45,951 bases of DNA from a virus (IMGVR_UViG_3300025132_000071:1-45951), one strand, 5' to 3'. Counted from the stretch's first letter, positions 12,386-33,808 are shown. The notes: generated by a model not told the origin, from the sequence alone. Program-made: numbers and translations.

Positions 12386-15300
12386 TTGGCACAGCCAAAG
12401 GAATGGTCCCCGAAAATGGACGAACAGAGTATTCGTTCTATAATAGACCAATATAACACAGCACCTCAATTATTCGATAATAGGGAAGATGATTTAGAAT
12501 CCCTAGAAGAGCACGCCTCATATTATAGAATACCATTTGCAAAACAACAGCAACATCAAGATGCACTTATTATTAGTATGCTTAAAGAAGCTGGTAAGGG
12601 TTTTGCTGAAGGTTTTACAACATTACCATTGGCTGGTAAGGCTAGTCCCAAAAACACTTGGGAAGGGATTGCTAATAACTTAGGACACCTTGCAGGTTTT
12701 GTAGGTTATCTCCCCGGTGGAAGAGCATTTAAACGACTAGGTATATTAAAAAGGTATACTGAAGTAGCTGATAATCTTAGAGGTGTTAGTGTCCCTATGG
12801 GAATTGCTAATGTTGTTCAAGGTAAAGCTAGAAAAGCAATAGAACCAATATTAAAAGACCTACCTGATTTTGCAAAGTCTCCTATATTTAGTGATATGGC
12901 AAGTGGGGCTTTCCATTTAGGTACTGCTAGTGCTGTTTCAAGTTGGACTCACGGAGTAGACGAGATGATGAATGCGGCTGGATTTGGTGGTATCGCAGGT
13001 GGTGCTTTTAGATTTATAGGTAATATGAAAGGCTTTGGTAAAAGAATAGAGCCAAAACAAATGAAGCCAAATGGCAGCCCTGATTTTTCAAAACTAGAAG
13101 ACGGACAGAAGTTTGATTTATTTATGAGAACTACTGCTGGTGCTATGTTTCAAGGACTACCATCTAGTGTACAAGGAGCTACCACAGAAGAACAAGTTTA
13201 TGCTTATGCAATGGGTGCTTTCTTTGGATTTAAAGAAGTACCTTATCAGACTAGAACAAGTAGAGAGTTCTTAGCTGATACAATGAAAAAAGATACAGGT
13301 CCAGACCCAGAGTTAAATCCTAAATGGGACACACTTACTACTGAAATGAAGGACATTGTAAAGAGAGATTTTAGACAAACATTCCGATACAACGAAGATG
13401 GACCAAGCGAAACATCGCATATGTTGTATGACTTCTTTAAAGGGAAACTTAATCTTGAAAACATTGATGAAATGGGTAGAGGGTTTAGGGAGAACTATGT
13501 AGTAGATGAAGTCACTGGAGAAGTGAGAGCTAGGTTTGATAAAAGAGAGATGGAGGACTACCAGAAAGAATATAAGAAAGATAAAAGTAGTCAAGATTCT
13601 CAAGATATGGATATGCACTTTTCAGATGTTGCAGATGTACCGGGTACATTGATAGGTAAAGGTGGATATGTAGATAACTTATTTAAAGACATAGGCTCAT
13701 ACGAAAGAATAGGAATATCAACTGAAATAAATAAAGCTTGGGAAGGATTACATATAAATGGAAAACCAGCACCGGGAGCAGAGCAAAAGATTATTGAATT
13801 TATTGAGAGTTCGTCTTGGGGAAGAGCACTTAATGAGAAGGAAAAATCTTGGTGGAGACGATGGGCAGAGACGACAAGAAAGAAGGAGTTCGTTGAGCAA
13901 ATTAATATTGTTGACACGGAAATCTCTATTCAAAAAGGAATTACCAACGCTCTGGGCAATCGCAAAGAACTTAAACAAGAACCTCTTATTATTGAAGAGC
14001 TATGGAAACAAGAAGTTTGGAGAACTACAAGAGAAAAAATAAAAGAGAACAACAGTAAGAATGAGTTTCCAGATAATAAATTCTTAAGAGTACTTGATGA
14101 AATAATATATAATGGTAAAGCTTATGATTTAAGTAGAGCTGAAGAAGGTATTGCAAGAGAACATACTAGAGTATTAGCTAAAGAAGATAAAAAGCAATAC
14201 TGGGAATACCAGAAAGAAGGAAAAGCTTACGCTAAAGGCTATATTAAAAATAGGATGAGTGAGTTAGTTAATAAGATGTATGAGGCTGGCTATTACTATT
14301 TTGGTGGTAAGGGTGACGCTAAAAAGATGTACTTCGTAAAATTACATCCATCTATTGCTAAGACAACTAACACAAAAGATGGCTCTAGAAAAGGTATGGC
14401 TACTAGATACCTTAAGAAAATTAATAAGGTTATAGATAATTTCTTAAAGAACTCTGACCCTGCTAAATATCCTAATAGAAAGAAAGCACAGTATGTTTAT
14501 AACGAATCTTTAAAGAAGTTTAAGGAGACATACCCTAAAGCAAAGAACCCTGAAAAACAATTCAGGCAAATGTTTGTTTCTAATGTTCTTTATGATATAC
14601 AGAACAATGGATTAAGTGTTAGGAATAAAGATTTTATAAAGAATTTTGAGAAAGTACTAGGGGATGGATTTATAAACGACCCTAGAGGATTTAATAAAAG
14701 ACAGCAGATATGGTTTAATACTGGTTATTCTGCTGACCCAGTTAATGTAGCAAGGTTATTAAAAACTAAAGGTTTAACATTAGAAAAAGATGCAGACGGC
14801 AATGATTCTTTTAGAGTTATTGTTTTTAATGATGCTAGTAATAAAAAGATTGCTACAAAAGAAGGTGCTATGCCTCTGTTTGCTAAGGCAAGTGAATACA
14901 CAGAAGCTACAGATGGAGCTATCATTGGAAGAAATAGCGTAGTTGATGCTTTAAACTTTGATAAAGGTATGCCTACGGAGGGAAAGATGAACAAGTCTTT
15001 CATTGTAGAGCCTTATGTAAATAACCCAGAATACGGGGCTTTATTAGGTAAATACGCTATTCATATTCCTAGTCCAGAATTAGCTCAATTTATGAAAAAG
15101 AATAAGATTCAAATGGTTATGCCTTTATCAGCAGTAAAACAAACCGGGGGACGGGAAGTTGGTAATTTAAAATTTGGTAAAGGTAATAAAATAGAATTTG
15201 AAGGTAAGTCTTTCCTACTGCCTGTTAAAGCTTTTAGAACTGTAATGACAGAGATAACTGCTAAGAAGTTTTTAAACCCTCAAAGAATGCCTAAGCAAAT

Positions 15301-18300
15301 GTCTTCTGTATTAAGTGAATATGGATATAGCAACATAGATAGAAAAGCTATGAAAGATATGCAAGATACTCTAACACTTAAAGCTACTCAGGGTACACCT
15401 GAAGGTCAAGAAGCATTAGATTCTTATTATAGAAATAAGAGCCCAGAGAATATGACCAATGTTCTTAATAATTTAGAGAATCTTCCATTAGAAAAGGTAT
15501 TTGAGATAGTTAAAAGTAAGGATGACCCTAGACTTGCACAAAAAGTTTATGAAGAAATACTAAGAGTTGATGCTGAACAAATGAAAATGTTAGCCGAAGA
15601 AGGCGAAATGAATAGAGAGCAGTATGAACAGGTAATTAAAAACACTATTGATTATGAAAGTATTTTAGAAAGAATAAGTTCAGTTTATCCAGATGGTACA
15701 GTTGCGGCTTACTTACATAAGTTTTCCCGTGATTACAGAATGCAAGCAATGCGTAATTATGTGGTCCATAAATTTACTAGACCACAGTTAGATAATAGTG
15801 CGTCTGCAAGAATGAGACCTTATGAATTAGGGTTCCAGAAAAAGAATAAAAACAGAGACGATACAACTATACTCAATACAGATGATGGTCAAAAGGTTTT
15901 CTTTTTAGACGAAGGATTTAGGGACCTTAAAATATACGACCCTATCTTTGGTAAAAGAGGTATGATAACATTAGGTGAGTTGTGGACTAAAAGAAATGAA
16001 TACTTAGGTAAGGATGCAACACCTGCTATTAGAAGTCAAGTAAAAGAAATACTTAATGCTATGGTAATGCGTGTACCTATGGATTCAATAAGTGGTGCTC
16101 ATAAGCTAGAGTTTAAAGGTTTTACTGGCGTAGAAGGTTATGGTTCTTTACTACACCCTAGAACTATGAGAGCGTTAGGTGGTGCTGATTTAGATGGTGA
16201 CAAAGCTACTATATTCTTTGGTGGTGAAGCTAGAGGATTTAGGAAATCTTGGAAGGAAATGTACCATAAGAATAAAGATGAGTATGTTAATTGGGATGGA
16301 ACTAAAGGTTCTCCTAAACCTAATGTTGTAAGAATTATATCCGGTTTTCAAACTGGAGCTGACATAGCAGGTAATCAAGTCGCAAAAGAATTGGGACTAG
16401 AAACTGGTGGAACTGCACCTAAGGGATTTAGGACTGATGATGGTTTAAAGCCAGAGTACAGAAATATGTATGGTGGAATTGAAATATCTAATAGACAGAC
16501 AAAGAATTATGATGGTAGAGAATCTACATATGGTCCTAGAACAGAACAGAATGTATTAAACTCTGATGGTACTGTTATATTTGGAAACTTAAATAGCCCG
16601 GGAAGTAAGTTAACTCATTTCTTAGCTAATAAACACGGAAAGTTTGTACTATTAAACCCAACTGCTAGAGAACTTAATGCTTGGCTAAATACAAATGGCA
16701 TTAAAACTTTAAATGTTGCTGGTAATAGAGAAAGAAGTAAGCCCGGAATTAATAAGAAAGTTAAAGAGATACTTAGGGAAGGCTTAGGTGAATTTAAAGG
16801 TAAAGAAGGTGGAGTCCCTGTTGAACAGCATAATAAAAATGAGATAGACCCTTATACTGGTAACTCATATGCCTCAGCTATAGCCGAAAGAGACCCTAAG
16901 TTTATTGAGAATATGGAACATCTTATGAACCAATACTCTCCATACTGGCGTCAATACATTAGTCAACAAACATTTTCAGGAAGAGACAATTTAGGTGTTG
17001 CAGTTGTGCAAAGAGCTAGTGTTCTAGGAGCTTATAATATGGTAAGGAATGCTCAAAGTGGACCAGATGCTCCAAAAATTAGTAAAGAAGTATATGAACC
17101 TTATTTTGATAGTAAGGGAAATAAGAAACATTATGTAAGCGAAGATACTGTGGGCGAAGGAGCCTATGGTACACCACTTGCTTATAAGGACCCTGTTACA
17201 GGACAATACTCACAGAAAAGAGTTGTGTTTACAACTAAGAATGGTGAACAAGATTTAAAGAGATTTAGAGAAATGGCTAGAGCTATGATTGCTATTGGTT
17301 CTGACCCTATGGATGAAGCTAAAGTTAATGGTGGTTTAATACCTAAAAAGATTTTTGATACTCTATTTGATGTAAAGATATACAATACAAAAGGTAAGAA
17401 TGGTGCTATAAGCAGTTTAAATAAGAAGCTTACTCAAAAATATATGCAAGACACTAATACTTTTGAAGGTCACGTTAAGTGGGTTAATAGAGTGATGCAA
17501 AAAGGACCTCAATCAATGTTTAATAATGTTAATAGGGTTCTTTATAGTAGAAATTATTCAGAAAATAGAAGATATAGTTTTTCTGAAATACAACAAGGTG
17601 TTCGTTCTATGGACTGGTTACCAGAGAATGTAAGAACAACATTCTTACCTAGAATAGCAAAAGAAATACAAGGAGTTGATTGGTCTGATGGTTTATTTAC
17701 TCGTATGGATTTTAAAGCACTAAGAAAGGTTTATGATTCCAATCAAAAGAGTATAGTAGAATTAGATGCTTTAAAAGAGGTTATGGGTAGAGATACTTTA
17801 AATACACCTATGTCTAAACTAATTAAGATGGTATTTGATGAAAGACTTTATGATGCTACAACAAGAAGAAATCTTTCTAAGAATACTGAGGGAGCTATAA
17901 GAGACTTTGAAAACCTTGTTAATCAAAGATACACTAGAAAAAAAGACGGAGAATCCGTTAAGGTAGTTGGGTTAAGTGTTCCTGATAATAAAAAGGTTAG
18001 CGACCCTAGATATAAAGAAGCCTATTTAGAGAATTTAGTATTAAAAGCAGAAGACTTTATGATAAACGACTTAAGTGATATGGCGTCTCTTAAAGTAGTT
18101 GCTGATGTAATAAGAAAACATAACATTCCTGATGAAAGATTTAAGTATATACACGAAAATGCTGATAAGATTAAATCTATGGCAAAGAATTTCTATAATG
18201 AGAGGAATAGATTAGACAGGGAACTTGTTAGTTCTTTAGAAAACTGGATGAACCAGAAGTATGGTAATAAAGATATACCATTCCCTTTAAAAGATTTTAT

Positions 18301-21300
18301 AGAAGGGACTTTAAAAGAACCTGCCGCTCGAGAAAAGACAAGTGCAGTTAACGATGCTGTTAAGACAGATACACTTATTAGAACTTTTAAGGGACAATTA
18401 AAAAAGAAAAGTGAAAAAGACTTATTCGATGTTCTTTATATGGGTACTTACCCTAAGGGTAATCAAAAAAGACTTAATGCTTTATTAAAACTACCTAAAG
18501 AAGTTCAGGCTTTCCCTGATATTGCTAGTGCAATTAAGTATCTACAGGGTGCAAAGATTAAAACTTCGTTACTTAGAGAAGGATTAAGGTCAAAAGAGAT
18601 AGACCCTGCTAACCTAAAGACATTTTTTAATGAGTACGATAACTTATTAAAGAAGGGTTCTAAAGGTTTAGATGCTAAAGCTGAAGAAAAACTATTAAAA
18701 GAAACTGAAACCAAGGAACCTTTAAAAAGCATAATGGATGAAAAAGGTAATATGGTTGAGAATGAGTTTATTAACATTAATAACATAGGCGATAAGAACG
18801 AGATAAAGTATCTTGATGAGGTACTACCTTTTGAAAATCTATACGCTGGTAAAGTAAAAGACCCAGAACTTAGACGCTTAAGAAAAAGTTTAGATGACCA
18901 TATGGACCATTATCACAACCTTGATGTTGTAAATCTTAATGGTTTCTTTAGAGGTATTTTTCATAAAGATATTAACAGAGCTAATAAACAAGATTTAATT
19001 AGGCTTGATAAGATATTTACTGATATGCGTACTGGAAGTACTTGGTCCCAGATAGCTGATTGGATTACTGGTCGTGGTCCTAAAGACCCTATTCCAATTA
19101 AAAAAAGTAATTACTGGAAGTTTCCAGAAGCTATTGAAAGAGACTTAAGAAGAAGTCCAGCGATGATGGATTGGATTACTGATATTGGACCCTATAAGTC
19201 AAAGCTTGGTAATACTATAGAAAACGCTAGGATAGTTAGACCTACTGCTATTATGGGTGAACTTCAACAAACAAGTGCTAAGGCTACTGAACTTAGTATG
19301 CAAGAATATGAAAAGATGTCTGCTGAATGGCAAGAAGATTTAAGACCTTATGTTGCCGCACTTCCAGAAGGGGACCAATTATTTAGAGTTGCTGTTGCTA
19401 AAAGAGAATATGATTATGGTAGAGAAGTTATTGTTCCAAATAATCCCGGTAAAGAAGGTAAAGAAATGGCTCAACCTTACTTTAGACATTGGACCGAAGC
19501 TAGAGGTGAATACAATAGATTAAAAGATATGAACTTTAATGTACCTACTGAAAATGGTACTATAAAAATGACTGGTGAACAAGTTGTAGAAAAGATTAAT
19601 AGAACTATAACTAGATACAATATGAAGACACACAGATTACTTACTGGTGATGGTGATAAAGTTCAAAAGTTTTTAGATATGAGTGAGGTTGGTGGAAAAG
19701 TCACTTATTCTGGTTTAGATAAATTAAGAAAATCATTCTACAACTATTTAACAAGGACAATGAGAGAAAACATTAGGTTACCTATTGAAGAAATAGGTCT
19801 TGATGGATTAAGGAAAATCATTAAAAGAATACAGTTATCTAATATGCCTGTAGAAATGCGTCAAGGTAAAGAAGGCAGAAAACTACTAGAAAAATTAAGA
19901 AGAAGTATTGAAATAGAAACAATGGACACAACTAATAACCTTGGTTATGAATACTATTTCCCACATACAAGCTTTGATAGAAAGTCTGCAACTGCAAATT
20001 TATTAAGAGCATTAAGAAAAGTATCTGCTGATAAAGAATTAAGTCAAGGTGAGATTGATTTAAAGGCTAAAAAGATTATAGCTCAACATAAACAGATGAC
20101 TGGAGATTTTATCCTTAAAGACGATATGGACCAGAATTGGAAGGTTGTTAAGGATGCTTTAGAAAACATCGCAGAAGGCAGGAAAAAACGAGCAGAAACT
20201 ATACTTAGTGATGGATTAGTTAAAGTTGGTAATCAATTTAAACGAGAAGCTCATATTGATGGATGGGAAATGACTCCAGAAGCTTATGAAGGTTATATGA
20301 AAAACATAATTAACCAATTTTATAAGAGCATTGCACAAGTTAGTTCTAGGACCGTAATGCACAACTTCAGACAATCATCACTTAAAAAAGGTAATAGTGC
20401 TCAATTTACTAATGATTGGAATACATTTTTTGAGATGTATACTCAAGCCGCAATGGGTTATCCTGTCCAAATACCTCAAAAAGTTATGGATAATCCTCGT
20501 TTAAAGGTTAAAGGTACTCCATATAAATGGTTAGCTGACTCAAATGCTAAGAAAAGAATTGATAATATCCGAAAGAAACTTGGTCTAGGTCGTGAAGAAC
20601 TAGAAAAATTAAACCTGAATGAGAAAGTTGTTGATGAATTAAGTGGTATTGAATACACACAACTTCAGAATTGGGGTGCTCTTGAAGCAAAATACCAACT
20701 AGCAACGCTACTAGCTCACCCTAAAAGTGCTATAGCAAACTATTATGGTGGTACTGTACATACTTGGGTGAGTGCTGGTTGGGAAAATCTTAAGAAAGCT
20801 AGAAACTTTGAATATCTACGGACCAACATTAATCCTAAATGGAAAAGTATGAAGGATGTTGAAAAATGGTTACAAGAACTTGGAGTACTAGAAGAATTTT
20901 TAATCTATGAAGCTGGATTAAATCCACAACTTAAATCAAGAAAAGCTCAGGACTTTGTTAAGAATGTTGCAAAGAAACTTAAGAAAGACCCTAATTTAAG
21001 TGATAAGAGCCTTACACAAATGGCAAAAGAAGCTGGATTAACAAAGAAAGTATTTGATGCCGCCAGTTCTTTTATGAGAGTTCCTGAAAGAGCATTAAGA
21101 CGAGATGCTTTTATGGCTCACTACTTACAAGCAAGAGCTAAGTTTGGTGGTGCAATAGGTGATTACCAATCTCCTTTCTTAATTAAGATGGCAAAGCGTG
21201 GTGTTAAAGGCACACAATTTTTATACTCTGCTCCATATAGACCTATGTGGGCAAATAGCACATTAGGTAGGGTGTTTAGTAGATTCCAAATTTGGGGCTG

Positions 21301-21847
21301 GAATAGTGTTCGTTTTAGAAATGACGTCCTAAAACAAGCAAGTTTAGCTGGATATAAACCCGGAACACAAGAGTTCGAAACATTTAAAAGATTAGCTTTA
21401 GCTGACTTAATGATGTTATCTCTTTCTAATCTGTTTATGTACAGTTTATTTGAAAACTCATTACCAGCTCCTTGGAATTGGTTCCAAGACACAACTGATA
21501 TGTTATTCGGAAGTGAAAAAGAACGAGAAAGAGCATTCTTTGGTTCTCCACTTGGTCCAGTACAAGCCGTAACTCCTCCTATAGCTAGATTACTACCTCC
21601 TATGTTTAAAGGAATGGTATCTGGTGATTGGGAAAGAATGACAGATTATTACTTGTGGACTATGATGCCTTTTGGTAGATTAATACGGGACGTAGCAGGA
21701 CCCGGGGGTATAATAGAAAACCCTTTTTACTCTGTCACTAAGATGACTGGTGTTCCTTTAATGCAAATGGGTACACTTGTTACTAAAGATGATGAGGAAA
21801 AAGGAAAGAAAACAAGAGGAAGATTTATACACGATGCCGATACCTAA
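12386..21847 (+). CDS. Giant polyvalent virion protein with RNA-polymerase-like and SLOG domains, 3153 residues
   Basis: The TTG start has GGAG 8 bases upstream. Domains in order: residues about 60-290 are glycine-rich and hydrophobic (membrane-contact type). Residues about 840-1290 show a pattern like two-barrel RNA polymerases: DGAIIG at 843-848 with lysines K867 and K870 (GKMNKS), then MRVPMDSISG, then GGADLDGDKA with D1268, D1270 and D1272 in the place of the metal-binding aspartates of the beta-prime subunit (DFDGD). Residues about 1313-1470 match the YpsA-type SLOG pattern (ISGFQTGADIAG, ETGGTAPKGFRT, RTEQNVLNSDGTVIFG). RDNLGVAVVQRA near 1550 could resume the polymerase fold. The remaining approximately 1500 residues are helical, of the large polyvalent protein kind, with a C-terminal hydrophobic segment near 3000. 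It may be a packaged, ejected transcriptase (inferred). Confidence 0.8.
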   Translation: MAQPKEWSPKMDEQSIRSIIDQYNTAPQLFDNREDDLESLEEHASYYRIPFAKQQQHQDALIISMLKEAGKGFAEGFTTLPLAGKASPKNTWEGIANNLGHLAGFVGYLPGGRAFKRLGILKRYTEVADNLRGVSVPMGIANVVQGKARKAIEPILKDLPDFAKSPIFSDMASGAFHLGTASAVSSWTHGVDEMMNAAGFGGIAGGAFRFIGNMKGFGKRIEPKQMKPNGSPDFSKLEDGQKFDLFMRTTAGAMFQGLPSSVQGATTEEQVYAYAMGAFFGFKEVPYQTRTSREFLADTMKKDTGPDPELNPKWDTLTTEMKDIVKRDFRQTFRYNEDGPSETSHMLYDFFKGKLNLENIDEMGRGFRENYVVDEVTGEVRARFDKREMEDYQKEYKKDKSSQDSQDMDMHFSDVADVPGTLIGKGGYVDNLFKDIGSYERIGISTEINKAWEGLHINGKPAPGAEQKIIEFIESSSWGRALNEKEKSWWRRWAETTRKKEFVEQINIVDTEISIQKGITNALGNRKELKQEPLIIEELWKQEVWRTTREKIKENNSKNEFPDNKFLRVLDEIIYNGKAYDLSRAEEGIAREHTRVLAKEDKKQYWEYQKEGKAYAKGYIKNRMSELVNKMYEAGYYYFGGKGDAKKMYFVKLHPSIAKTTNTKDGSRKGMATRYLKKINKVIDNFLKNSDPAKYPNRKKAQYVYNESLKKFKETYPKAKNPEKQFRQMFVSNVLYDIQNNGLSVRNKDFIKNFEKVLGDGFINDPRGFNKRQQIWFNTGYSADPVNVARLLKTKGLTLEKDADGNDSFRVIVFNDASNKKIATKEGAMPLFAKASEYTEATDGAIIGRNSVVDALNFDKGMPTEGKMNKSFIVEPYVNNPEYGALLGKYAIHIPSPELAQFMKKNKIQMVMPLSAVKQTGGREVGNLKFGKGNKIEFEGKSFLLPVKAFRTVMTEITAKKFLNPQRMPKQMSSVLSEYGYSNIDRKAMKDMQDTLTLKATQGTPEGQEALDSYYRNKSPENMTNVLNNLENLPLEKVFEIVKSKDDPRLAQKVYEEILRVDAEQMKMLAEEGEMNREQYEQVIKNTIDYESILERISSVYPDGTVAAYLHKFSRDYRMQAMRNYVVHKFTRPQLDNSASARMRPYELGFQKKNKNRDDTTILNTDDGQKVFFLDEGFRDLKIYDPIFGKRGMITLGELWTKRNEYLGKDATPAIRSQVKEILNAMVMRVPMDSISGAHKLEFKGFTGVEGYGSLLHPRTMRALGGADLDGDKATIFFGGEARGFRKSWKEMYHKNKDEYVNWDGTKGSPKPNVVRIISGFQTGADIAGNQVAKELGLETGGTAPKGFRTDDGLKPEYRNMYGGIEISNRQTKNYDGRESTYGPRTEQNVLNSDGTVIFGNLNSPGSKLTHFLANKHGKFVLLNPTARELNAWLNTNGIKTLNVAGNRERSKPGINKKVKEILREGLGEFKGKEGGVPVEQHNKNEIDPYTGNSYASAIAERDPKFIENMEHLMNQYSPYWRQYISQQTFSGRDNLGVAVVQRASVLGAYNMVRNAQSGPDAPKISKEVYEPYFDSKGNKKHYVSEDTVGEGAYGTPLAYKDPVTGQYSQKRVVFTTKNGEQDLKRFREMARAMIAIGSDPMDEAKVNGGLIPKKIFDTLFDVKIYNTKGKNGAISSLNKKLTQKYMQDTNTFEGHVKWVNRVMQKGPQSMFNNVNRVLYSRNYSENRRYSFSEIQQGVRSMDWLPENVRTTFLPRIAKEIQGVDWSDGLFTRMDFKALRKVYDSNQKSIVELDALKEVMGRDTLNTPMSKLIKMVFDERLYDATTRRNLSKNTEGAIRDFENLVNQRYTRKKDGESVKVVGLSVPDNKKVSDPRYKEAYLENLVLKAEDFMINDLSDMASLKVVADVIRKHNIPDERFKYIHENADKIKSMAKNFYNERNRLDRELVSSLENWMNQKYGNKDIPFPLKDFIEGTLKEPAAREKTSAVNDAVKTDTLIRTFKGQLKKKSEKDLFDVLYMGTYPKGNQKRLNALLKLPKEVQAFPDIASAIKYLQGAKIKTSLLREGLRSKEIDPANLKTFFNEYDNLLKKGSKGLDAKAEEKLLKETETKEPLKSIMDEKGNMVENEFININNIGDKNEIKYLDEVLPFENLYAGKVKDPELRRLRKSLDDHMDHYHNLDVVNLNGFFRGIFHKDINRANKQDLIRLDKIFTDMRTGSTWSQIADWITGRGPKDPIPIKKSNYWKFPEAIERDLRRSPAMMDWITDIGPYKSKLGNTIENARIVRPTAIMGELQQTSAKATELSMQEYEKMSAEWQEDLRPYVAALPEGDQLFRVAVAKREYDYGREVIVPNNPGKEGKEMAQPYFRHWTEARGEYNRLKDMNFNVPTENGTIKMTGEQVVEKINRTITRYNMKTHRLLTGDGDKVQKFLDMSEVGGKVTYSGLDKLRKSFYNYLTRTMRENIRLPIEEIGLDGLRKIIKRIQLSNMPVEMRQGKEGRKLLEKLRRSIEIETMDTTNNLGYEYYFPHTSFDRKSATANLLRALRKVSADKELSQGEIDLKAKKIIAQHKQMTGDFILKDDMDQNWKVVKDALENIAEGRKKRAETILSDGLVKVGNQFKREAHIDGWEMTPEAYEGYMKNIINQFYKSIAQVSSRTVMHNFRQSSLKKGNSAQFTNDWNTFFEMYTQAAMGYPVQIPQKVMDNPRLKVKGTPYKWLADSNAKKRIDNIRKKLGLGREELEKLNLNEKVVDELSGIEYTQLQNWGALEAKYQLATLLAHPKSAIANYYGGTVHTWVSAGWENLKKARNFEYLRTNINPKWKSMKDVEKWLQELGVLEEFLIYEAGLNPQLKSRKAQDFVKNVAKKLKKDPNLSDKSLTQMAKEAGLTKKVFDAASSFMRVPERALRRDAFMAHYLQARAKFGGAIGDYQSPFLIKMAKRGVKGTQFLYSAPYRPMWANSTLGRVFSRFQIWGWNSVRFRNDVLKQASLAGYKPGTQEFETFKRLALADLMMLSLSNLFMYSLFENSLPAPWNWFQDTTDMLFGSEKERERAFFGSPLGPVQAVTPPIARLLPPMFKGMVSGDWERMTDYYLWTMMPFGRLIRDVAGPGGIIENPFYSVTKMTGVPLMQMGTLVTKDDEEKGKKTRGRFIHDADT

Positions 21848-25193: not shown

Positions 25194-25338
25194 CTTCTTC
25201 CTTTATAGCTTTTTCGATTATGAACTCTAACTGTTTACGCATACTACGCTTATTAGTAACAGCAAGTTTTTGCAGTTGCAACTTAACTTCTGGTAAAACT
25301 TCAGTTTTAACTACAACTTTCTTAGCAAATGGTGTCAT
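25174..25338 (-). CDS. Ribbon-helix-helix-like DNA-binding protein
   Basis: This 54-residue protein starts at ATG 25338, overlapping the stop of the primase-helicase gene (TAATG) with AAGGAG 6 bases upstream. The strand KKVVVKTEVLPEVKLQLQKLAVTNKRSMRKQLEFIIEKAIKEE follows the ribbon-helix-helix layout: a beta strand, a helix starting at LPEVKLQLQKLA, a turn, and a second helix. It is probably a dimeric repressor or accessory DNA binder acting in the replication operon. Confidence 0.7.
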   Translation of the reverse strand: MTPFAKKVVVKTEVLPEVKLQLQKLAVTNKRSMRKQLEFIIEKAIKEEDGKEDN

Positions 25339-27116
25339 TATGCTCTCCTTTTTAATCTGAATGAAGGAGTCCACATTAATTCAACATCAAATAAGTCTCC
25401 GTCACTGTTCTTAAATAGTGAAACAGTTTTCTCTGTAGAATCCTGTTTACCATTAATACCAATAACTTTACGACTTGCATTTTCTATAGCACCTGAACCT
25501 TTACCAGCATATATGTCAAGAATTTGATTTCGTGAATACTCACGAGCTACTTGACTTATCTGTATAATGATAATGTCCAGATTAACGGCTAAGTTTGACA
25601 AGAAATGTGATATGTACCTTACTTGTTCATACTCTCCGTTAATACCTCTAGGTGTTTCTACTAAGTCTATGTAGTCAACTACAACCAAGTTAGGCTGTAG
25701 GTCCCTAATAGTCTTTTGTATCATATCTGGAGTTGGTGCTACTGTTTGCATATTAAGATGTTCTAAATACTGATTATATGTGTCTCCAACAAATTTATAG
25801 TTGGCTGTAACATCATCTTTGCTCATACCTGCTACTATCTGCTGATTGCGTCTGTGCATATACCAACCACTTAATTCTAAAGATAAGAACAAAGTCGGTA
25901 TTTGCCACTCTCTGTTGATTTCATCATTAGCAAAATCATATCCTAACGCTATGTTCTGGGCTAAAGCTGTCTTATTAGCACCAGTAGGTCCGAATATGGT
26001 TACTAATTCTCCCGGATATATATTGCAATCTTTATCAAGACCAAACATTTTGGCTAATGGTATCATTTTACCAGTAAAATCAGCCTCTAATCTGGTCTCT
26101 AACTCTGACTGCAAGTCTCCAGAAGTCTTAATATCAACAAGATAGTCCTTGTTTTTGTAGTATACGCACTTTGGATTACACAAACTAGCTAATAATTCGT
26201 CATTACAGCCGTATTTATATCCGTAGTTATAGGTAGATTCGACCTTATCTATAACTATTTGTGGATTTAGCTGGTTGTTATTCCAATGTAACAAGCTTGC
26301 TTTTGTAGCATCACTTGGTATACCATTTCGTCTAAAGTGAGAAGCCATCCGTAATAAAGCGTGATTACGATTACCTTGCTGTGGTCCTTTATTATACAGA
26401 GATTGTACACAATTAACCACATTAGAAGGTTCGTTTACTTTTTGCATTGACCTAACCTTTGGAACTTCTTTCACTATGTAACTTTCAAGACTCTTTTCTC
26501 CCCAGAGTTCTTCAACTCCAAAATCTAATCGTCTATCTTGTGCAAGTGAGATGATGTTCGTGTAGTTAGTATATAGCTCTTCTAAAGTTAAAGGTATCTT
26601 AAATAACTCTGACTTTATATTTAGACTGTGTGCTACTCTTATGAGTGCCGTCCTAGTGTATACTGCTGGGTCAATCTTAATATCTTCTGACATTAAATTC
26701 ATCATTGTAGCTTTTACAATAAATGGCAGGTCTTCTGATGGTTGAAATCCAAAACACTCTGCACTAATGTCGATATGATATCCAGTGCCACTATAGTATA
26801 TTGCATAGTTTCCTTTTTTAAGGCTTAACTCTTTATGTAAGTAATCCATTATATACTGCGTTTGCTGTAATGTATACTCATCAGAGTTCTGTCCTCTATC
26901 AATATCTATAGGTACATTGTCTATATACCTAATACCAAGGAAGTTTTTAACTGTACCGTTAGCTCTAACAAACTTTGTAGCTTCATCATCGTACAGATAA
27001 ACACTTCTGTATACGGCTTGTTCATTACCTTGCTCGTATACTATGTCCCATAAGTCCTCAATAGGAACGAGAGCCCCTCGTTTAGAGGGACTCCCGATTG
27101 CCATTTCAACAAACAT
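25338..27116 (-). CDS. Primase-helicase fusion (AEP-type primase plus DnaB/RecA-like helicase)
   Basis: The N-terminal approximately 200 residues carry archaeo-eukaryotic primase motifs: PIDIDRG at 69-75 (metal-binding D71/D73) and YYSGTGYHIDI near 108-118 (the S-x-H motif with H114). The C-terminal half is a RecA-fold helicase: Walker A GPTGANKT at about 376-383 (K382) and a Walker B-type LVVVDYIDL near 470, with a QISQ sensor segment. Together they would prime and unwind DNA at the phage fork. The ATG overlaps the SSB-like gene stop (TAATG), so it is translationally coupled. A second possible start (MAIGSP) lies 12 bases inside. Confidence 0.88.
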   Translation of the reverse strand: MFVEMAIGSPSKRGALVPIEDLWDIVYEQGNEQAVYRSVYLYDDEATKFVRANGTVKNFLGIRYIDNVPIDIDRGQNSDEYTLQQTQYIMDYLHKELSLKKGNYAIYYSGTGYHIDISAECFGFQPSEDLPFIVKATMMNLMSEDIKIDPAVYTRTALIRVAHSLNIKSELFKIPLTLEELYTNYTNIISLAQDRRLDFGVEELWGEKSLESYIVKEVPKVRSMQKVNEPSNVVNCVQSLYNKGPQQGNRNHALLRMASHFRRNGIPSDATKASLLHWNNNQLNPQIVIDKVESTYNYGYKYGCNDELLASLCNPKCVYYKNKDYLVDIKTSGDLQSELETRLEADFTGKMIPLAKMFGLDKDCNIYPGELVTIFGPTGANKTALAQNIALGYDFANDEINREWQIPTLFLSLELSGWYMHRRNQQIVAGMSKDDVTANYKFVGDTYNQYLEHLNMQTVAPTPDMIQKTIRDLQPNLVVVDYIDLVETPRGINGEYEQVRYISHFLSNLAVNLDIIIIQISQVAREYSRNQILDIYAGKGSGAIENASRKVIGINGKQDSTEKTVSLFKNSDGDLFDVELMWTPSFRLKRRA

Positions 27117-27736
27117 TAGAACGGAGAATCACTTCTACTTTCTTGAATGCCGCCGTTAGGTTGCACTCCGTTTGTTGCTACCCCTTGTTCCACCTCTTTA
27201 ATAAGGTTCTTAGACTTCATAAAGTTTATGTAGCCTTCAATGTCCTTACGACCAGCAGGTGTATTGTGAACCAGTTTTGGAAACACGGTTGTATAAGTTT
27301 TACTTGGGTCCTTACGACCTAGTTCTTTATACAGATATGCAAGATATTCGTGTTTTGGTTCTAAGGGATTGGTACAGAAATTAGCGTCAAGGTGATTGAC
27401 TAAGTCAATGCTTTCGCCATTTTCATCTACCATATTACCCCGTACATCTGGTCCACCTTCAAAACCGATGGTGTCAAAGAGCCAATAAAGTCTCTTTAAG
27501 ATTGTACAGGTTTTGATATTCCCATTTGGTTCTTTATCAAAAGAGCCCGAAAGCCTCATTTCCTGAGGGTATTGCGAACCTTCTAATGATAATTGAGCCA
27601 CTATGTAGACATCAGCCCAATCAAATTGGTCTGCTCTGTCTTCAAAGCTAAGAATACCGACTGGAACATAGCCTAAGAACTTGCTTCCTCCGTCACCGGA
27701 TTTGTCAAGGTCAGCAGGTCTGAATCGTTCACTCAT
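27116..27736 (-). CDS. Single-strand DNA-binding-like protein
   Basis: This 206-residue protein has a compact N-terminal domain of about 160 residues (FLGYVPVGILSFEDRADQFDWADVYIVAQL...) that could be an OB fold, then a flexible linker and a C-terminal tip SRSDSPF. That tip resembles the acidic D-x-P-F tail by which SSB proteins recruit partners. It lies between the Sak4-like recombinase and the primase-helicase, the usual company of phage SSBs. GGAGG precedes the ATG, which overlaps the recombinase stop as ATGA. Confidence 0.68.
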   Translation of the reverse strand: MSERFRPADLDKSGDGGSKFLGYVPVGILSFEDRADQFDWADVYIVAQLSLEGSQYPQEMRLSGSFDKEPNGNIKTCTILKRLYWLFDTIGFEGGPDVRGNMVDENGESIDLVNHLDANFCTNPLEPKHEYLAYLYKELGRKDPSKTYTTVFPKLVHNTPAGRKDIEGYINFMKSKNLIKEVEQGVATNGVQPNGGIQESRSDSPF

Positions 27737-28593
27737 TTATCCTCCTTATACTTTAGGATTTCGTTAGATATAGCACTATACTCTAAAGGGAGTATTTTCT
27801 GAGCAAGAGGTTTTAGTCTTGAACCGACCACTCTCTCGTCATACGCCTCAAAAGAAATATAGTACTTACCATCATCTTTACTGGCTGTAGTATATCCAAT
27901 AACGTCAGCTTTTGCCGCTAATGAGTAACCCAGTCCTCGTGGTAGCTCTGGTGCTAGTTGTACCTTTCCATCTTGCATCTGAGATGTTTTGGAATGGCTA
28001 ACTAACACTAGATTACCACCTTTCATTTTCATAAGGTCTTGGAACCTTTTGACGACATCTAGGTTTTTACGCCTAGCTTTTCCCCAATCGGCACCCCATT
28101 GACCTTCTCCCATAGCACTAATACCTAGTTCAGTAGTAACGATGTGTTCTACCCACTCGTTAACTTGACCTATGGTATCTATTACTATGGTGTCATACGG
28201 CAGATTCTCCCACTCTTTAGCTAACCATTGATATGCCTCTATCATTGAATAGACAGGCATTGGTTCACCTTTGGAATCCCCAGAACGATAGTTAAAACCT
28301 CGTTCTTCCGGTGGAATTACCTCTGTTTCAGCCACACCGTTTTTTGTGACTTGTTTACCCTCGTGCATTACGGGGCGTATAGGAGCGTTCAAACCAGTAA
28401 TCGTAACTGTGTTAGCATTATTTACGAAATCGGAGCCAAGGTCAGTGTCGAGTATTATAACTCCCTCACTACCTTTGGGACTCCACTTACTACACGCTGT
28501 TGTTTTACCGGTTTTAGGCTGTCCTATGATTAAATATGTCAATCCTGCTGGCATTGCTGTCCAGTCGGTTGACACTTTGCGTACTTGTATCAA
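27733..28593 (-). CDS. Sak4-like RecA-family ATPase
   Basis: This protein is 286 residues from the TTG at 28593, chosen because AGGAGG lies 6 bases before it; an ATG at 28608 lies upstream of that signal and is less likely. Walker A is GQPKTGKTT at residues 24-32 and Walker B is YDTIVIDTIGQ near 125. A downstream LVLVSHSK segment with a polar residue after the strand fits single-domain phage recombinases of the Sak4 type (AAA_24 fold). It likely loads on single-stranded DNA with the SSB-like protein encoded next. It overlaps the E1-like gene by 80 bases. Confidence 0.82.
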   Translation of the reverse strand: MIQVRKVSTDWTAMPAGLTYLIIGQPKTGKTTACSKWSPKGSEGVIILDTDLGSDFVNNANTVTITGLNAPIRPVMHEGKQVTKNGVAETEVIPPEERGFNYRSGDSKGEPMPVYSMIEAYQWLAKEWENLPYDTIVIDTIGQVNEWVEHIVTTELGISAMGEGQWGADWGKARRKNLDVVKRFQDLMKMKGGNLVLVSHSKTSQMQDGKVQLAPELPRGLGYSLAAKADVIGYTTASKDDGKYYISFEAYDERVVGSRLKPLAQKILPLEYSAISNEILKYKEDK

Positions 28594-29284
28594 CTGATAC
28601 CTCCTCATTTACTTTTGGAGTTATTAATGTCCCAAATTCGACCATATTTGGGTTCAGGCTGGTCCAAATGTAGTCATAATATGCAAGACCTGCAACTATA
28701 TTATACACTTGAGCTAAGCCAAGGGACACTATATGATTTGTAGCAAATACAGTATGCTTCATACTGCAAGGTGCTGGTGGAATAGTATGCGTAGGGACCC
28801 AGTGCTTATCATAGACCTCTATGTGAGAACGAGTGCACGTTACCATCTCCACACTAGTGGCACCCATACGCATATCTATAAAGAAATGTGGGTTTTCACT
28901 TTCACACCACTTATTAAATACCATTTTTCTACTTTCCATATCATCTGTACACACAATCATCTTTGGAGTTATCTTACTGTTTAACTCAAAGTTGTCTTTT
29001 GGTACAAACTCTTGCCAATCTTCGCTGTAACGCTGGAATAAACCCTGAGCAGAGTCTTTCTTTGCATTACCACTTTCTTCTAATGGATAACAAGTGGTAC
29101 TTAAGTTATGGTCTTCTATAACATCACTGTCATAACCTATAACCTTGTGCCAACCCATCATAGCTAATCCTTGTACTAAGAATGAGCCAATCCCACCTAA
29201 TCCTACTATACTAATAGTATTAAGTGAGCTTAATGGAATTAACTCCTTATTTCTAAGAAATCGTGTTTCTACTTTACCTGCCAT
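28514..29284 (-). CDS. E1/ThiF-like activating enzyme of a ubiquitin-like system
   Basis: This 256-residue adenylating enzyme has a nucleotide-binding glycine loop GLGGIGS at 28-34, the acidic segment YDSDVIEDHNLS at 51-62 (the family's D-x-D-x-V-E-x-x-N-L), CTDDMESR at 112-119, and cysteine C173 in PPAPCSMKHT as a candidate thioester or sulfur-carrying residue. ThiF/MoeB/E1 proteins adenylate the C-terminus of a beta-grasp protein. Here the partner should be the UBL encoded at 32479-32682 in the same operon. The ATG overlaps the preceding unknown gene, and the 3' end overlaps the recombinase gene. There are no extra E1 domains, so it is a minimal bacterial-type enzyme. Confidence 0.88.
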   Translation of the reverse strand: MAGKVETRFLRNKELIPLSSLNTISIVGLGGIGSFLVQGLAMMGWHKVIGYDSDVIEDHNLSTTCYPLEESGNAKKDSAQGLFQRYSEDWQEFVPKDNFELNSKITPKMIVCTDDMESRKMVFNKWCESENPHFFIDMRMGATSVEMVTCTRSHIEVYDKHWVPTHTIPPAPCSMKHTVFATNHIVSLGLAQVYNIVAGLAYYDYIWTSLNPNMVEFGTLITPKVNEEVSVDTSTQSVNRLDSNASRIDIFNHRTA

Positions 29285-29706
29285 TCTATAAAGTCCTTTA
29301 ACATTGCGTGTGCCGCCTCTTCTGAGCCAAACATAGCAACATCTTTTATGCGTGTAGCTTCTTCGTAAAGCTTATTACGCTGGTTAACAATATCATTATT
29401 CTCTCTAGCTTGTTCCTCTTCAAGCTCTTGTTTATAGTCTTCATAACCTTTTAACATAGACTTAATAGGGATATCTCCTAATCCGGAGCCTCCCCAATGT
29501 CGGTCTTTACCATCTCCTAATACTAAGTCGATAGCCTTTTGTACTTTCTTAATATCTGTAGGATATTTTATTTTACCATTGGCTAAGCCCATTTGAGCTA
29601 TACCTTTATTAGTCATTCCAGCAACATCTTTTAATTCGTTTACCTTTTTAGTGGTAATCTCATCAATCCTTGTGCAGAAATACTTCTTTTGTGGTACTGT
29701 CATCAT
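29269..29706 (-). CDS. Unknown 145-residue protein inside the ubiquitin-like cassette
   Basis: This protein is charged and largely helical. A middle section, MTNKGIAQMGLANGKIKYPTDIKKVQKAIDLVLGDGKDRHWGG, is followed by a coiled-coil-like segment (GYEDYKQELEEEQARENNDIVNQRNKLYEEA). AGGAGG stands 7 bases before the first ATG. It overlaps the E1-like gene by 16 bases and follows the structured gap after the JAB gene, so it may be a further component of the conjugation system, for example a substrate, adaptor or target-binding protein. No family was recognised. Confidence 0.75.
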   Translation of the reverse strand: MMTVPQKKYFCTRIDEITTKKVNELKDVAGMTNKGIAQMGLANGKIKYPTDIKKVQKAIDLVLGDGKDRHWGGSGLGDIPIKSMLKGYEDYKQELEEEQARENNDIVNQRNKLYEEATRIKDVAMFGSEEAAHAMLKDFIEWQVK

Positions 29707-29816
29707 AACAGTTCCTCCTGTTCTTGTTTTATTAGTGGAAAACTTGGGGGACTACCTAAGCTGTGTAGCTTTATTGGTAGTTGTGGAAGGAAGGTAATCC
29801 CCCTGATGAAAAGTCA

Positions 29817-29894
29817 GGGCACGGCGTGGGTGTTGATTCACTGTAAAAAGTAGTCTTATGGTAAAGGAGCAACTACTTTAGAGCAACCGTGCCC
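29817..29894 (-). ncRNA. Candidate 78-nt structured RNA
   Basis: Read on the minus strand, the element begins GGGCACGG and ends CCGTGCCC, an 8-bp closing stem. It holds a second 8-bp stem, AAAGTAGT (29872-29879) with ACTACTTT (29847-29854), followed by more T residues. A plausible promoter upstream would start transcription at the first G of the closing stem. D- and T-arm features of a tRNA are absent. It may be a free small RNA or an attenuator; the sequence does not decide. Confidence 0.5.
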
Positions 29895-29900
29895 TTAACA

Positions 29901-29928
29901 ATATAAGGTATTCCTTGGAATTATCCAA
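29901..29928 (-). promoter_or_regulatory. Putative sigma70-like promoter for the small RNA
   Basis: On the minus strand, TTGGAT (29923-29928), a 16-base spacer and TTATAT (29901-29906) precede the 78-nt hairpin element. Six bases after the -10 hexamer is the first G of GGGCACGG. TTCCAAGGAA in the spacer is a perfect 10-bp palindrome and could be an operator. Confidence 0.45.
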
Positions 29929-29932
29929 ACAA

Positions 29933-30832
29933 TTACCAATACCTAGAATTGCCACCCAATCCATCCATAAATGTATATGGATTTGTGTTTGGGCACTTCT
30001 CTCTGGCTTGTTCTAAGAACTCGTGATAAGTAATGGACCCGTCACAAAACTCTTGTGCTAGGTCTTCCATCTTATCAAATTCCTCTTGAGTGAGTTCTGT
30101 TTGCTGGTCCCAAGAGGAGTACTTCTTTTTTGCTTCTGCGGCTGTGTCCTTATCTTCTTCTTTTTCCGTCTGTCGTATCGTGTTCCAGCTACCTCCGTGA
30201 GAAAAGCCAGATGTGTTATACATAGAAAGTTGACCATCATACCCTGTATATGTGGTCTTAACTTCTTTCTTCTTTGCTTTCTGGATAGCAGTTGCTTCTG
30301 CAACCCACGCCTTAGGTATATCCACCTTTGGCATACTTACTTCTACTTCACCTTCTAATAGATTCGTATAACCAAATCTGTCAGAATATGTAAAGCAACA
30401 ATCATACGGGTCCTTTTGTGAGGCTACAACAGTACTGAAGAAGAACCCATCTCTAGGTGCTTGTTCTCTGGCTGTGTCTTTATCTGTCCCACTAAGGAAT
30501 GCTCCCATAGTATGATGTGAGTGAATTAACCCTAAATAACAACTCTTTAAATCAGGGTACTTTTTATAGACTTTAGGTAATAGCTTACCTAACTTCTCTC
30601 CGTCTACCTCAGTTTCAGTTCCGTGTCCCAAGTGTATTGGCTTAAAATATACCAATTCTACTTCAGACGGAAATCCATTGTCTAATGTCTTAACAATGTG
30701 ATACCACGCTGGTCCTGACCATTCGGTACTCTTAAAACGCTTCAAGAGATAGCTGACTTTGTTGTGCATCATCTCTGAGACGCTCAACTGCCAACTTGCT
30801 TTTGAGTCTTTTGTGCTTTGACTTTCCATCAT
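29933..30832 (-). CDS. JAB/JAMM-family metallopeptidase (ubiquitin-like system)
   Basis: This 299-residue protein has a complete JAMM zinc-peptidase motif: E37 (STEWSG), then HSH at 104-106, seven residues, S114, two residues, D117 (HSHHTMGAFLSGTD). Such enzymes cut after the C-terminal glycine of ubiquitin-like proteins, either maturing the UBL or removing it from targets. After the approximately 170-residue catalytic domain comes an acidic linker and a C-terminal helical piece (TQEEFDKMEDLAQEFCDGSITYHEFLEQAREKC) ending GLGGNSRYW. The start at 30832 lies 101 bases inside the E2-like gene; starts at 30772 or 30769 would shorten but not remove the overlap. Confidence 0.88.
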   Translation of the reverse strand: MMESQSTKDSKASWQLSVSEMMHNKVSYLLKRFKSTEWSGPAWYHIVKTLDNGFPSEVELVYFKPIHLGHGTETEVDGEKLGKLLPKVYKKYPDLKSCYLGLIHSHHTMGAFLSGTDKDTAREQAPRDGFFFSTVVASQKDPYDCCFTYSDRFGYTNLLEGEVEVSMPKVDIPKAWVAEATAIQKAKKKEVKTTYTGYDGQLSMYNTSGFSHGGSWNTIRQTEKEEDKDTAAEAKKKYSSWDQQTELTQEEFDKMEDLAQEFCDGSITYHEFLEQAREKCPNTNPYTFMDGLGGNSRYW

Positions 30833-32354
30833 TTACCTTTTTAGTTACTAGATTAACGGCGAGCCTTTCTATGTTATCCAATGCCTGATGAACTATATGG
30901 TCGCTCACACAATCTACCATTTCATCCCAGTTATCGTTGATGTTCTTTAACTCATCCATTTCTAAGAAACATTCAACTAACTGACCAGCTAATGCCCAAG
31001 GGTCATCATAGATATCTTGACTTATTGTTGCATTTCCATCAATTAACTTAAGTGTCTTATTAATAGCATCATAAAGCTCAAATGATTCTGAGTCTCTATA
31101 ATTACTAGTATAATAATGCAATGATTCAAGTACTTTCTTATAGTCAAGATATACTCTATCCTTGAACTGCTTTTTCCTGTTGGAATGCTGGATAAACTCA
31201 AAGATACTTGACAATCCAATATCTATTCCTTGTCCATTTCTTTGAGCATCACCTATTATCCTGTCAATTTTACTAGCAATATAATCTCTTAGTCTGCGTA
31301 CCTCTACTACCCAAGTTGCTGGAGCTTGAGGTTTTAACACACTAGTGAAATAAAATCGCTTTTCTTCTAAAACTGACTCTGCAATTAAAGGAATTGTATA
31401 GGCATTTTGAGGTGGTCCATCTAAAACCTGATTGAACTTTTGGTAACTACGCTCTAATATGTCGTCAAGGACAAATGAGCCTTGTCTTATTCTTTTTACC
31501 AATCGGTTTTCAGTATCACCTACTATCCTAGAACAGGATTCTGCTAAAACAAAAGAAGCGTGTATTTTCTTAGGACACATTTCTTTGTGATATAGCAAAT
31601 TCTCTAGTAATTCCTCATTTCTATTACACCAAGTAAAGAAAGCAGTACTTCTTCTGGACCTTAGATTAGCCCTTTGTGTTACTGCACCCAGCCACTTATA
31701 CACTACAAAGAAATCATTCATAGAATAAACCTTTTTATAGCATTGTGGTAGATTCCTATACTTGGTATATACCCAATTAATGTCCCAATAGGCATCATTT
31801 CTTGTCCAAGTATTCAGAAAACTCTGAGCAACTGGTATTAATGAAAGGATATTACCCGTAGCAACACAGGAAGACCAAGCGTTAGCCCAGCCACCTAAAC
31901 AGGGTTCTCCATTTTCACTAATATGTGGGTGTAAACTATACTGCTTATGCTCATCTACTTGCGTAAATGGAATGCTATTGTACCCTAAAGTTCCCCAACT
32001 CATATCTTCTATCCACTTAGGCATCTCTTCATTATGTGTTATATAAACACTTGAAGGTCTGTCTGTAGTAAACCTTAAAGAATGAACTGGTAACTTATAA
32101 GAAGCACTTCCTCTAAATTTAGGAACGCCTATTTCTACGCAAAATTCCATAAATATAGATTCTTCATCTTCCTCATCGTGATAGTACTTTGTCCACTTAA
32201 CACTATGCACATTTAACTTTTCTACATAATATGCGGCAGTGGACTCAGCTTCCTCTTTCCTGAGAGGAGTACTTTGATACCTAGCATTAGATAGTAGCCA
32301 TCTAGTGATAGCAACTACTTTAGCTTTTTTGCTATTTAACAATATTGATTTCAT
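30732..32354 (-). CDS. E2-like (ubiquitin-conjugating fold) protein, 540 residues
   Basis: The N-terminal approximately 200 residues follow an E2/UBC-like pattern. Strand-rich segments lead to YSLHPHISENGEPCLGGW at 139-156, matching the HP-x-[IV]-x-x-x-G-x-x-C-L active-site signature, with C152 as candidate thioester cysteine. The remaining approximately 340 residues are helical, with no known motif and a basic tail (KKVNDGKSKHKRLKSK), so the protein is over three times the size of a bare E2. The extra part could select targets or replace an E3 (inference). GGAG precedes the ATG at 32354. It lies directly downstream of the UBL gene and overlaps the JAB gene. Confidence 0.8.
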   Translation of the reverse strand: MKSILLNSKKAKVVAITRWLLSNARYQSTPLRKEEAESTAAYYVEKLNVHSVKWTKYYHDEEDEESIFMEFCVEIGVPKFRGSASYKLPVHSLRFTTDRPSSVYITHNEEMPKWIEDMSWGTLGYNSIPFTQVDEHKQYSLHPHISENGEPCLGGWANAWSSCVATGNILSLIPVAQSFLNTWTRNDAYWDINWVYTKYRNLPQCYKKVYSMNDFFVVYKWLGAVTQRANLRSRRSTAFFTWCNRNEELLENLLYHKEMCPKKIHASFVLAESCSRIVGDTENRLVKRIRQGSFVLDDILERSYQKFNQVLDGPPQNAYTIPLIAESVLEEKRFYFTSVLKPQAPATWVVEVRRLRDYIASKIDRIIGDAQRNGQGIDIGLSSIFEFIQHSNRKKQFKDRVYLDYKKVLESLHYYTSNYRDSESFELYDAINKTLKLIDGNATISQDIYDDPWALAGQLVECFLEMDELKNINDNWDEMVDCVSDHIVHQALDNIERLAVNLVTKKVNDGKSKHKRLKSKLAVERLRDDAQQSQLSLEAF

Positions 32355-32478
32355 ATCAATTCTCCAGTTTTCATCGTAAGCGTGACGGTCCGGCTTTCTA
32401 AGGGGCGAACCTCTTTCACACAGTCGGTTTTATTACTGTTGGCTTCACGCCACGCTACACGAATCACTTAATCAATGC
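32355..32478 (-). other. 124-base spacer between the UBL and E2-like genes
   Basis: There is no reading frame. The minus strand holds AGCGTG and CACGCT as possible outer arms about 75 bases apart, an AAGAGG-TTCG-CCCCTT hairpin with one mismatch in the middle, and the E2 ribosome binding site (GGAG) at the end. It may be an mRNA structure that separates the yield of the tiny UBL from that of the large E2. Confidence 0.35.
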
Positions 32479-32682
32479 CTAGCAACCAGATGTTACCTTA
32501 TCAGTAACAAATGCCACGAAATCATCATCTCTCAATGACGCATTTGGCTCTGCTTTCTTTGCATTGACATTAATAGTGGTGTTGTCTAAAGAGATACCAA
32601 GACTCTCAGCCAATCCTGCTGGATTATCTGCGTCCATCGTCTTTACAACTCCACCGAAGGTCTGTACTAGTACTTTAGCCAT
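32479..32682 (-). CDS. Ubiquitin-like beta-grasp protein (UBL)
   Basis: This 67-residue protein starts at ATG 32682 with GGAGG 5 bases upstream. It has the beta-grasp layout of ThiS, MoaD and prokaryotic ubiquitin-like proteins: strand KVLVQTFGG, strand VVKTMDAD, helix NPAGLAESLG, strand TTINVNAKKAE, then ASLRDDDFVAFVTDK, the counterpart of the L-x-D-G-D-x-V near the C-terminus. It ends in VTSGC rather than GG. It is the likely substrate for the E1-like, E2-like and JAB proteins encoded downstream. The gene overlaps the preceding 70-residue gene by 8 bases. Confidence 0.82.
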   Translation of the reverse strand: MAKVLVQTFGGVVKTMDADNPAGLAESLGISLDNTTINVNAKKAEPNASLRDDDFVAFVTDKVTSGC

Positions 32683-33598: not shown

Positions 33599-33808
33599 TT
33601 ATAGATTCAAGACCTTATCTTCAATCCGGTGATTAACATCATCTGGTAGTTCGTGGTGGTCGCACTTTAGGCAATGTATGCCGAGTTCGGAGCAGTCAAC
33701 ACATAGGTCAACTTCATACTCCTCCCAAACAGTGTCTGTACTTCCACACCTTGAACATTCCAAATCACATTTATCACCGGATATCGGAAGAAGATTATGT
33801 CTCTTCAT
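33599..33808 (-). CDS. Zinc-ribbon protein
   Basis: This 69-residue protein starts at ATG 33808. It has six or seven cysteines, with CSRC, CVDC and CLKC pairs (and C near residue 13), followed by DHHELPDD. It probably binds one or two zinc ions. It overlaps the end of the membrane-protein gene upstream by 14 bases and precedes the ParB-like gene. A nucleic-acid binding role is likely but not shown. Confidence 0.65.
   Translation of the reverse strand: MKRHNLLPISGDKCDLECSRCGSTDTVWEEYEVDLCVDCSELGIHCLKCDHHELPDDVNHRIEDKVLNL

Follow-up and report, generated by a model that had tools for sequence, protein, structure and literature searches.

A predicted ubiquitin-like conjugation set among the replication genes of a tailed phage, with relatives in Crassvirales and Flavobacterium phages

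Bacteria and plasmids are known to carry complete sets of a ubiquitin-like modifier (UBL), its E1 and E2 enzymes and a JAB protease, mainly for defence against phages. Closest in composition to the locus described here is the PRTRC cassette of plasmids (NCBIfam TIGR03735-TIGR03742), which we take to correspond to type 6d among the operons of Iyer et al. 2006: it also belongs to a mobile element, has a ParB neighbour and encodes UBL, E2-like, JAB and ThiF proteins in separate genes. Bil/BUB and type II CBASS (Cap2/Cap3) share the E1, E2 and JAB logic and, in Bil, the UBL. The TtuB and SAMP systems of Thermus and archaea combine an E1 with a JAMM protease and put the modifier to dual use in sulfur transfer and conjugation; to our knowledge, they work without an E2. 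In the survey by Iyer et al. (PMC1779556), bacterial E1/E2/JAB/UBL operons are described alongside a phage tail UBL/JAB pair that lacks E1 and E2, namely the tail-assembly proteins of lambda and T1, in which TAPI is a UBL with a C-terminal glycine and TAPK a JAB-NlpC protein.

Here, we describe a set of all four components in a viral record of 45,951 bases (the window, that is, the whole stretch analysed). Unlike the TAPI/TAPK pair of the tail genes (PMC1779556), the four components lie among replication genes; unlike Bil and CBASS, the set is on a phage genome and has its E1 and E2 as separate genes rather than as an E1-E2 fusion; and it differs from the TtuB/SAMP systems, which hold the closest UBL structures, by its E2-like protein. 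Membership of PRTRC was rejected, as UBL, E2 and ParB gave no hit to TIGR03735-TIGR03742 and JAB and ThiF reached 13 versus 101.8 and 24 versus 144.75 bits, respectively; the closest plasmid E1 matches to the phage E1 are weak. Assignment to a known defence system was likewise rejected: PADLOC, whose 2023 library may not include Bil models, matched only E1-E2 models over the Rossmann stretch of the E1, and family searches recognised no CD-NTase or other nucleotidyltransferase among the proteins of the block. Ubiquitin is absent from the main text of the 2021 survey of crAss-like phages (PMC7886860), of the crAss001 paper (PMC6235969) and of the 2023 Crassvirales paper (PMC10569736), and the polyvalent-protein survey discusses RadC-type JABs only (PMC5512222). 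We found no description of a phage E1-E2-JAB-UBL set in the open-access literature. Within the open-access literature a full phage-encoded set thus appears to be undescribed, which does not prove priority. With a probability of slightly more than three quarters, we read the block as a ubiquitin-type system that is complete in itself and tags proteins reversibly, and that would be used early in infection. This reading draws on four folds or families, on conservation of active sites and of the modifier C-terminus, and on co-inheritance; from these we infer all catalytic steps, the target and the purpose.

The minus-strand block (33575-25338) that includes the set reads in the order ParB, UBL, E2-like protein, JAB, a 145-aa ORF, E1/ThiF, Sak4-type recombinase, a 206-aa protein and primase/DnaB helicase, the set itself spanning 32682-28514. 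Plus-strand genes for terminase, portal and major head protein confirm a tailed phage; also on the plus strand is a late gene for a 3153-aa protein (12386-21847) without meaningful family match. An earlier note on this DNA had placed four conjugation ORFs here with numbered key residues, and all its coordinates and residue numbers proved correct, on the minus strand. It had also named ParB, recombinase, SSB and primase genes as neighbours, and three of these stand. The 226-aa ParB-like protein (P0006; 32895-33575, minus strand) immediately upstream of the set, a position kept in several relatives, matches the PHROG ParB-like partition protein (phrog_620) at 2e-11. Downstream of the E1, on the same strand, are the Sak4-type recombinase/annealing protein (27733-28608; PHROG 124, 1.3e-25) and the primase/DnaB-type helicase (25338-27116; Pfam DnaB_C 2.9e-12, PriCT_1; PHROG DnaB 7e-29). 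The SSB label fell away, the 206-aa protein at 27116-27736 having no match in family searches. In 20,000 composition shuffles per protein, the motif pattern of the E2 arose once, that of the JAMM protease 28 times and that of the E1 24 times; the corresponding counts in 823 unrelated ORFs from the same loci were 1, 0 and 5.

The claim that a complete set occupies phage early genes is strengthened by its conservation in phage cassettes, some 38 of them close and some 39 distant, and a database search for the same gene order, as the note had proposed, extends the set beyond this phage to Crassvirales and Flavobacterium phages, where its annotations mislead. Scans of viral contigs returned 38 distinct E2-JAB pairs of the window type and 39 of the crAss/Flavobacterium type. 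The order UBL-E2-JAB-(145-aa)-E1 is kept in the former (~38 contigs) and UBL-E2-JAB-E1-X75 in the latter (~39 contigs). X75 is a conserved protein encoded directly after E1 (L002:11852-12940 and L003:12342-13154; gp75 in crAss001), for which we obtained no family match and which was not found in window-type phages. Cultured phages with the set are crAss001 (gp79-gp76), DAC15, Kolpuevirus and FpV4. Between the two types, tblastn detects homology of E1 (1e-16) and JAB (2e-10), and the UBL profiles align with 64.5% probability, SG on SG. The E2 and JAB genes overlap in the same relative frame in 38/38 window-type pairs and in 36 of the 38 overlapping crAss/Flavobacterium pairs (74/76 overall), which points to common descent. 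For E2, hhalign gave no alignment of the two profiles; a BFVD structure search with the window E2 placed the crAss-like proteins ctDAq1 and cr128_1 among its 13 best matches, none of which passes E 0.001. By homology, order and overlap, and for E2 by structure search, we assign the window set and the crAss-like/Flavobacterium cassette to the same lineage.

This conservation bears on the main alternative, counter-defence, in which the conjugation set would tag or jam anti-phage proteins of the host, such as the CBASS or Bil machinery, early in infection. That bacteria use conjugation systems against phages is established (PMC10097602, PMC11153139); the early-gene position of the set fits such a role, and JAB and E1 are parts able to interfere with host UBL pathways. 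However, accessory counter-defence genes come and go, whereas here four core genes are kept in strict order across distant phage groups, and in the three groups examined their surroundings are replication genes, with primase, recombination or uracil-DNA glycosylase genes adjoining the set in the window, crAss001 and FpV4. We regard counter-defence as rather unlikely.

Several single loci depart from the common pattern. In a 148-kb contig (L071:5015-7955) the order is E2-JAB-E1-UBL, with the E2 motif HPHISSAGVACLG and a 73-aa ORF, ending in KMMKGN, that is UBL-like in appearance. The Xanthomonas jumbo phage PhiXhv-12 (L128:3238-6612) encodes an 892-aa protein with the E2 motif (HPH...HGSLCLG) and many cysteines beside an E1; no JAB was seen near it. 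In bacterial genomes, the E2 profile found no relatives and the JAB profile one, L127, filed as a Spirochaetia MAG; L127 carries a UBL-E2-JAB-E1 cassette of the crAss-like type and may be a misbinned phage. Group I introns (L046:5091-5303, L048:4495-4754, L058:3162-3393) split two JAB genes, both in crAss-like contigs, and one E2 gene, so that ORF-based annotation sees broken genes.

The UBL gene (P0001; 32479-32682, minus strand) starts with ATG behind GGAGG and encodes 67 residues ending in KVTSGC, with Gly66 followed by Cys67. Its assignment as a beta-grasp protein in the earlier note was upheld by structure prediction: the AlphaFold2 model, built with 18 phage sequences, is a compact beta-grasp (pLDDT 85), Foldseek matches it to ubiquitin and SUMO chains, and TtuB (Z 9.2), MoaD (8.7) and the archaeal modifier SAMP2 (8.1) are among the top rows of VIA-align. 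K-V-x-S-G is common to 23/24 distinct window-type UBLs, the SG being invariant in these 23, and is followed by about 0-4 variable residues (none, C, S, A, R, SK, LA, LV, LTA, LSQ or SIALA); the outlier, L080, ends in TGGIV. As conservation stops at the glycine and the tail beyond it is disposable, the protein looks like a processed modifier. The UBL domain of crAss-like and Flavobacterium phages has the same KxxSG, after which the protein either ends or, mostly, continues for 100 to >200 residues; by analogy, this long tail may be read as in UBL precursors. In one contig (L047:2680-2958) the UBL gene stops right after KKIKSGKF and the sequence expected next is found in its own ORF (3491-3883); a further insertion has probably occurred where the UBL domain ends, and Rfam gave no intron match at this site.

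Both TtuB and MoaD, the best structural matches of the UBL, are sulfur carriers, and the E1 of crAss001 is annotated as the thiamine biosynthesis protein ThiF. A lesser rival to protein tagging is hence sulfur transfer, in which the E1 would make a C-terminal thiocarboxylate on the UBL with which tRNA, nucleotides or a cofactor would be thiolated, in the manner of ThiS, MoaD and TtuB. Sulfur carriers, however, need no E2, and nearly all complete cassettes include an E2-like protein whose HxH...Cys is conserved; the variable tail beyond the SG end also speaks against this role, and the set contains no recognisable rhodanese, desulfurase or thiolase. We judge sulfur transfer improbable.

The E2-like protein (P0002; 540 aa; 30732-32354, minus strand) carries HPHISENGEPCLGGW and Cys152 (codon 31899-31901). 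It combines an E2/UEV-like N-terminal domain (residues ~6-224, with HPHISENGEPCL) with a long helical C-terminal part (~300 aa) and a disordered tail. That it has an E2-like core, as had been proposed, is supported by its predicted structure (pLDDT 84.5), in which a helix, strands 49-107, HPH 142-144, Cys152 and helix 154-166 follow in E2 order. Ube2W (Z 6.0), the TSG101 UEV (5.9), UbcH10, Ubc9 and Rad6 are the leading VIA-align rows over residues ~6-224; the Z scores of the E2 rows are modest (4.4-6), in a range (Z < 8) that the tool warns can be incidental, and a single fold family, E2/UEV, fills the top of the ranking. When the 45-residue active-site segment was compared with 177,635 PDB sequences, 37/37 chains at E up to 10 were E2 enzymes; the best, UBE2W, aligns Cys on Cys at E 0.2, no single chain being significant. 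Eukaryotic UBE2W, the closest PDB entry to the E2 core in sequence and structure, has HPHVYSNGHICL where the window protein has HPHISENGEPCL; the likeness is in the core only, the phage protein adding its helical C-terminal part, and implies no close relationship. Residues H142, P143, H144, P151, C152 and G154 are invariant in 20 relatives with 17-43% identity to the window E2. On predicted fold and motif only, we classify the N-terminal domain as a UBC-type E2 with its Cys after HPN/HPH. Pfam, NCBIfam and other family libraries gave no match for this protein, tblastn found no phage match and a single-sequence search of viral contigs returned none; relatives came only through the JAB and E1 neighbours and the fold. 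With the whole model as query, Foldseek found no significant match in the PDB, probably on account of the dominant helical tail. That the protein is instead a non-catalytic UEV-like or unrelated domain, in an operon that only processes a small protein by E1 adenylation and JAB cleavage, would agree with a Z of only 6, the inactive TSG101 UEV among the best rows and the missing Pfam E2 match, but is very improbable given that Cys152 and both His are invariant and placed exactly as in UBE2W HPHVYSNGHICL, and that the same HxH...CxG motif recurs across crAss-like, Flavobacterium and other phage lineages. The predicted disordered C-terminus of the protein, QQSQLSLEAF (30732-30790, minus strand), resembles sliding-clamp-binding peptides. 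We rejected it as a conserved clamp-binding peptide: third-position variability dips only slightly (0.94 versus about 1.2 bits), and its conservation is unusable as evidence because the stretch is dual-coded with the JAB N-terminus.

The gene for the JAB/JAMM metalloprotease (P0003; 299 aa; 29933-30832, minus strand) starts within the E2 gene, sharing 101 nt with its 3' end. The protein matches Pfam Prok-JAB at 4.1e-5 and 23.9 bits, just below the gathering cut-off of 25, and has the full JAMM motif exactly as first numbered (E37, H104, H106, S114, D117), all five residues being invariant in 18 divergent JABs of window-type, crAss-like and Flavobacterium phages. It is predicted to process the UBL and to deconjugate it. 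The 256-aa E1/ThiF-like adenylating enzyme (P0004; 28514-29284, minus strand) matches Pfam ThiF at 5.6e-11 (42.5 bits, cut-off 28.1); the glycine loop and acidic follow-on noted before are present as GLGGIGS and then YDSDVIEDHN, as is Cys173. Residues G28, G30, G31, D52, D54, K75, D114, R119 and C173 are the same in the E1s of crAss001 and FpV4.

How might the four proteins work together? In the protein-tagging reading, JAB would trim the residues beyond Gly66 of the UBL, E1 would adenylate Gly66 and pass the UBL as a thioester from Cys173 to Cys152 of the E2, which would link it to an amino group of the target, and JAB could take it off again. We identified no E3 for the phage set. Tentatively, the targets could be replication-associated proteins of phage or host; this is proposed because the set lies among early replication genes, a reading from gene neighbours only, which carry little weight within an early operon. 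Still somewhat less probable is the wider idea that UBL conjugation specific to phages belongs to the core of the replication module in several large groups of phages, Crassvirales among them, where its reversible tagging would control replication proteins of phage or host; if true, it would be a viral counterpart of ubiquitin/SUMO control over the eukaryotic replisome.

The conservation of all four components within phage replication modules would reverse the picture drawn from defence, making tagging a tool of the virus, and control of the ubiquitin type may be widespread among bacterial viruses. The gp79-gp76 proteins of crAss001 are annotated as hypothetical, hypothetical, metalloprotease and thiamine biosynthesis, and genes of gut crAss-like phages labelled in these ways are probably parts of one machine. 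As cultured phages of the crAss001, DAC15 and FpV4 type carry the set, it is testable in laboratory phage-host pairs.

Two small ORFs accompany the set. The 145-aa ORF (P0005; 29269-29706, minus strand) lies between JAB and E1, overlaps E1 by 16 nt and is co-conserved in most window-type relatives; family libraries gave no match, and its HMM matches window-type loci only. Just upstream of the set, a 69-aa protein (33599-33808, minus strand) has a zinc-ribbon-like CxxC...CxxCxHxE pattern. It has 43 matching ORFs in window-type loci, is encoded upstream of UBL in most window-type phages, and overlaps the UBL start with its end in L112, L115, L118 and L119; we offer it, as a lead only, as a possible adaptor.

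Finally, the gap between JAB and the 145-aa ORF holds a covarying structured RNA of 83 nt (29815-29897, minus strand) that has no match in Rfam. The gap has a fold z of -4.8, and the RNA model matches at 66 bits. The element has a closing stem with strong covariation, together with a small hairpin (GGGCACGG...CCGTGCCC, with variants GGGTTAAG/CTTAACCC and others); 99.3% of 143 pair cells are paired, with compensatory changes in 5/11 pairs. The element occupies this gap in about 20 related phages and its motif occurs in 21 viral-contig stretches, while in L112 and L118 it lies ~1 kb upstream of UBL instead.
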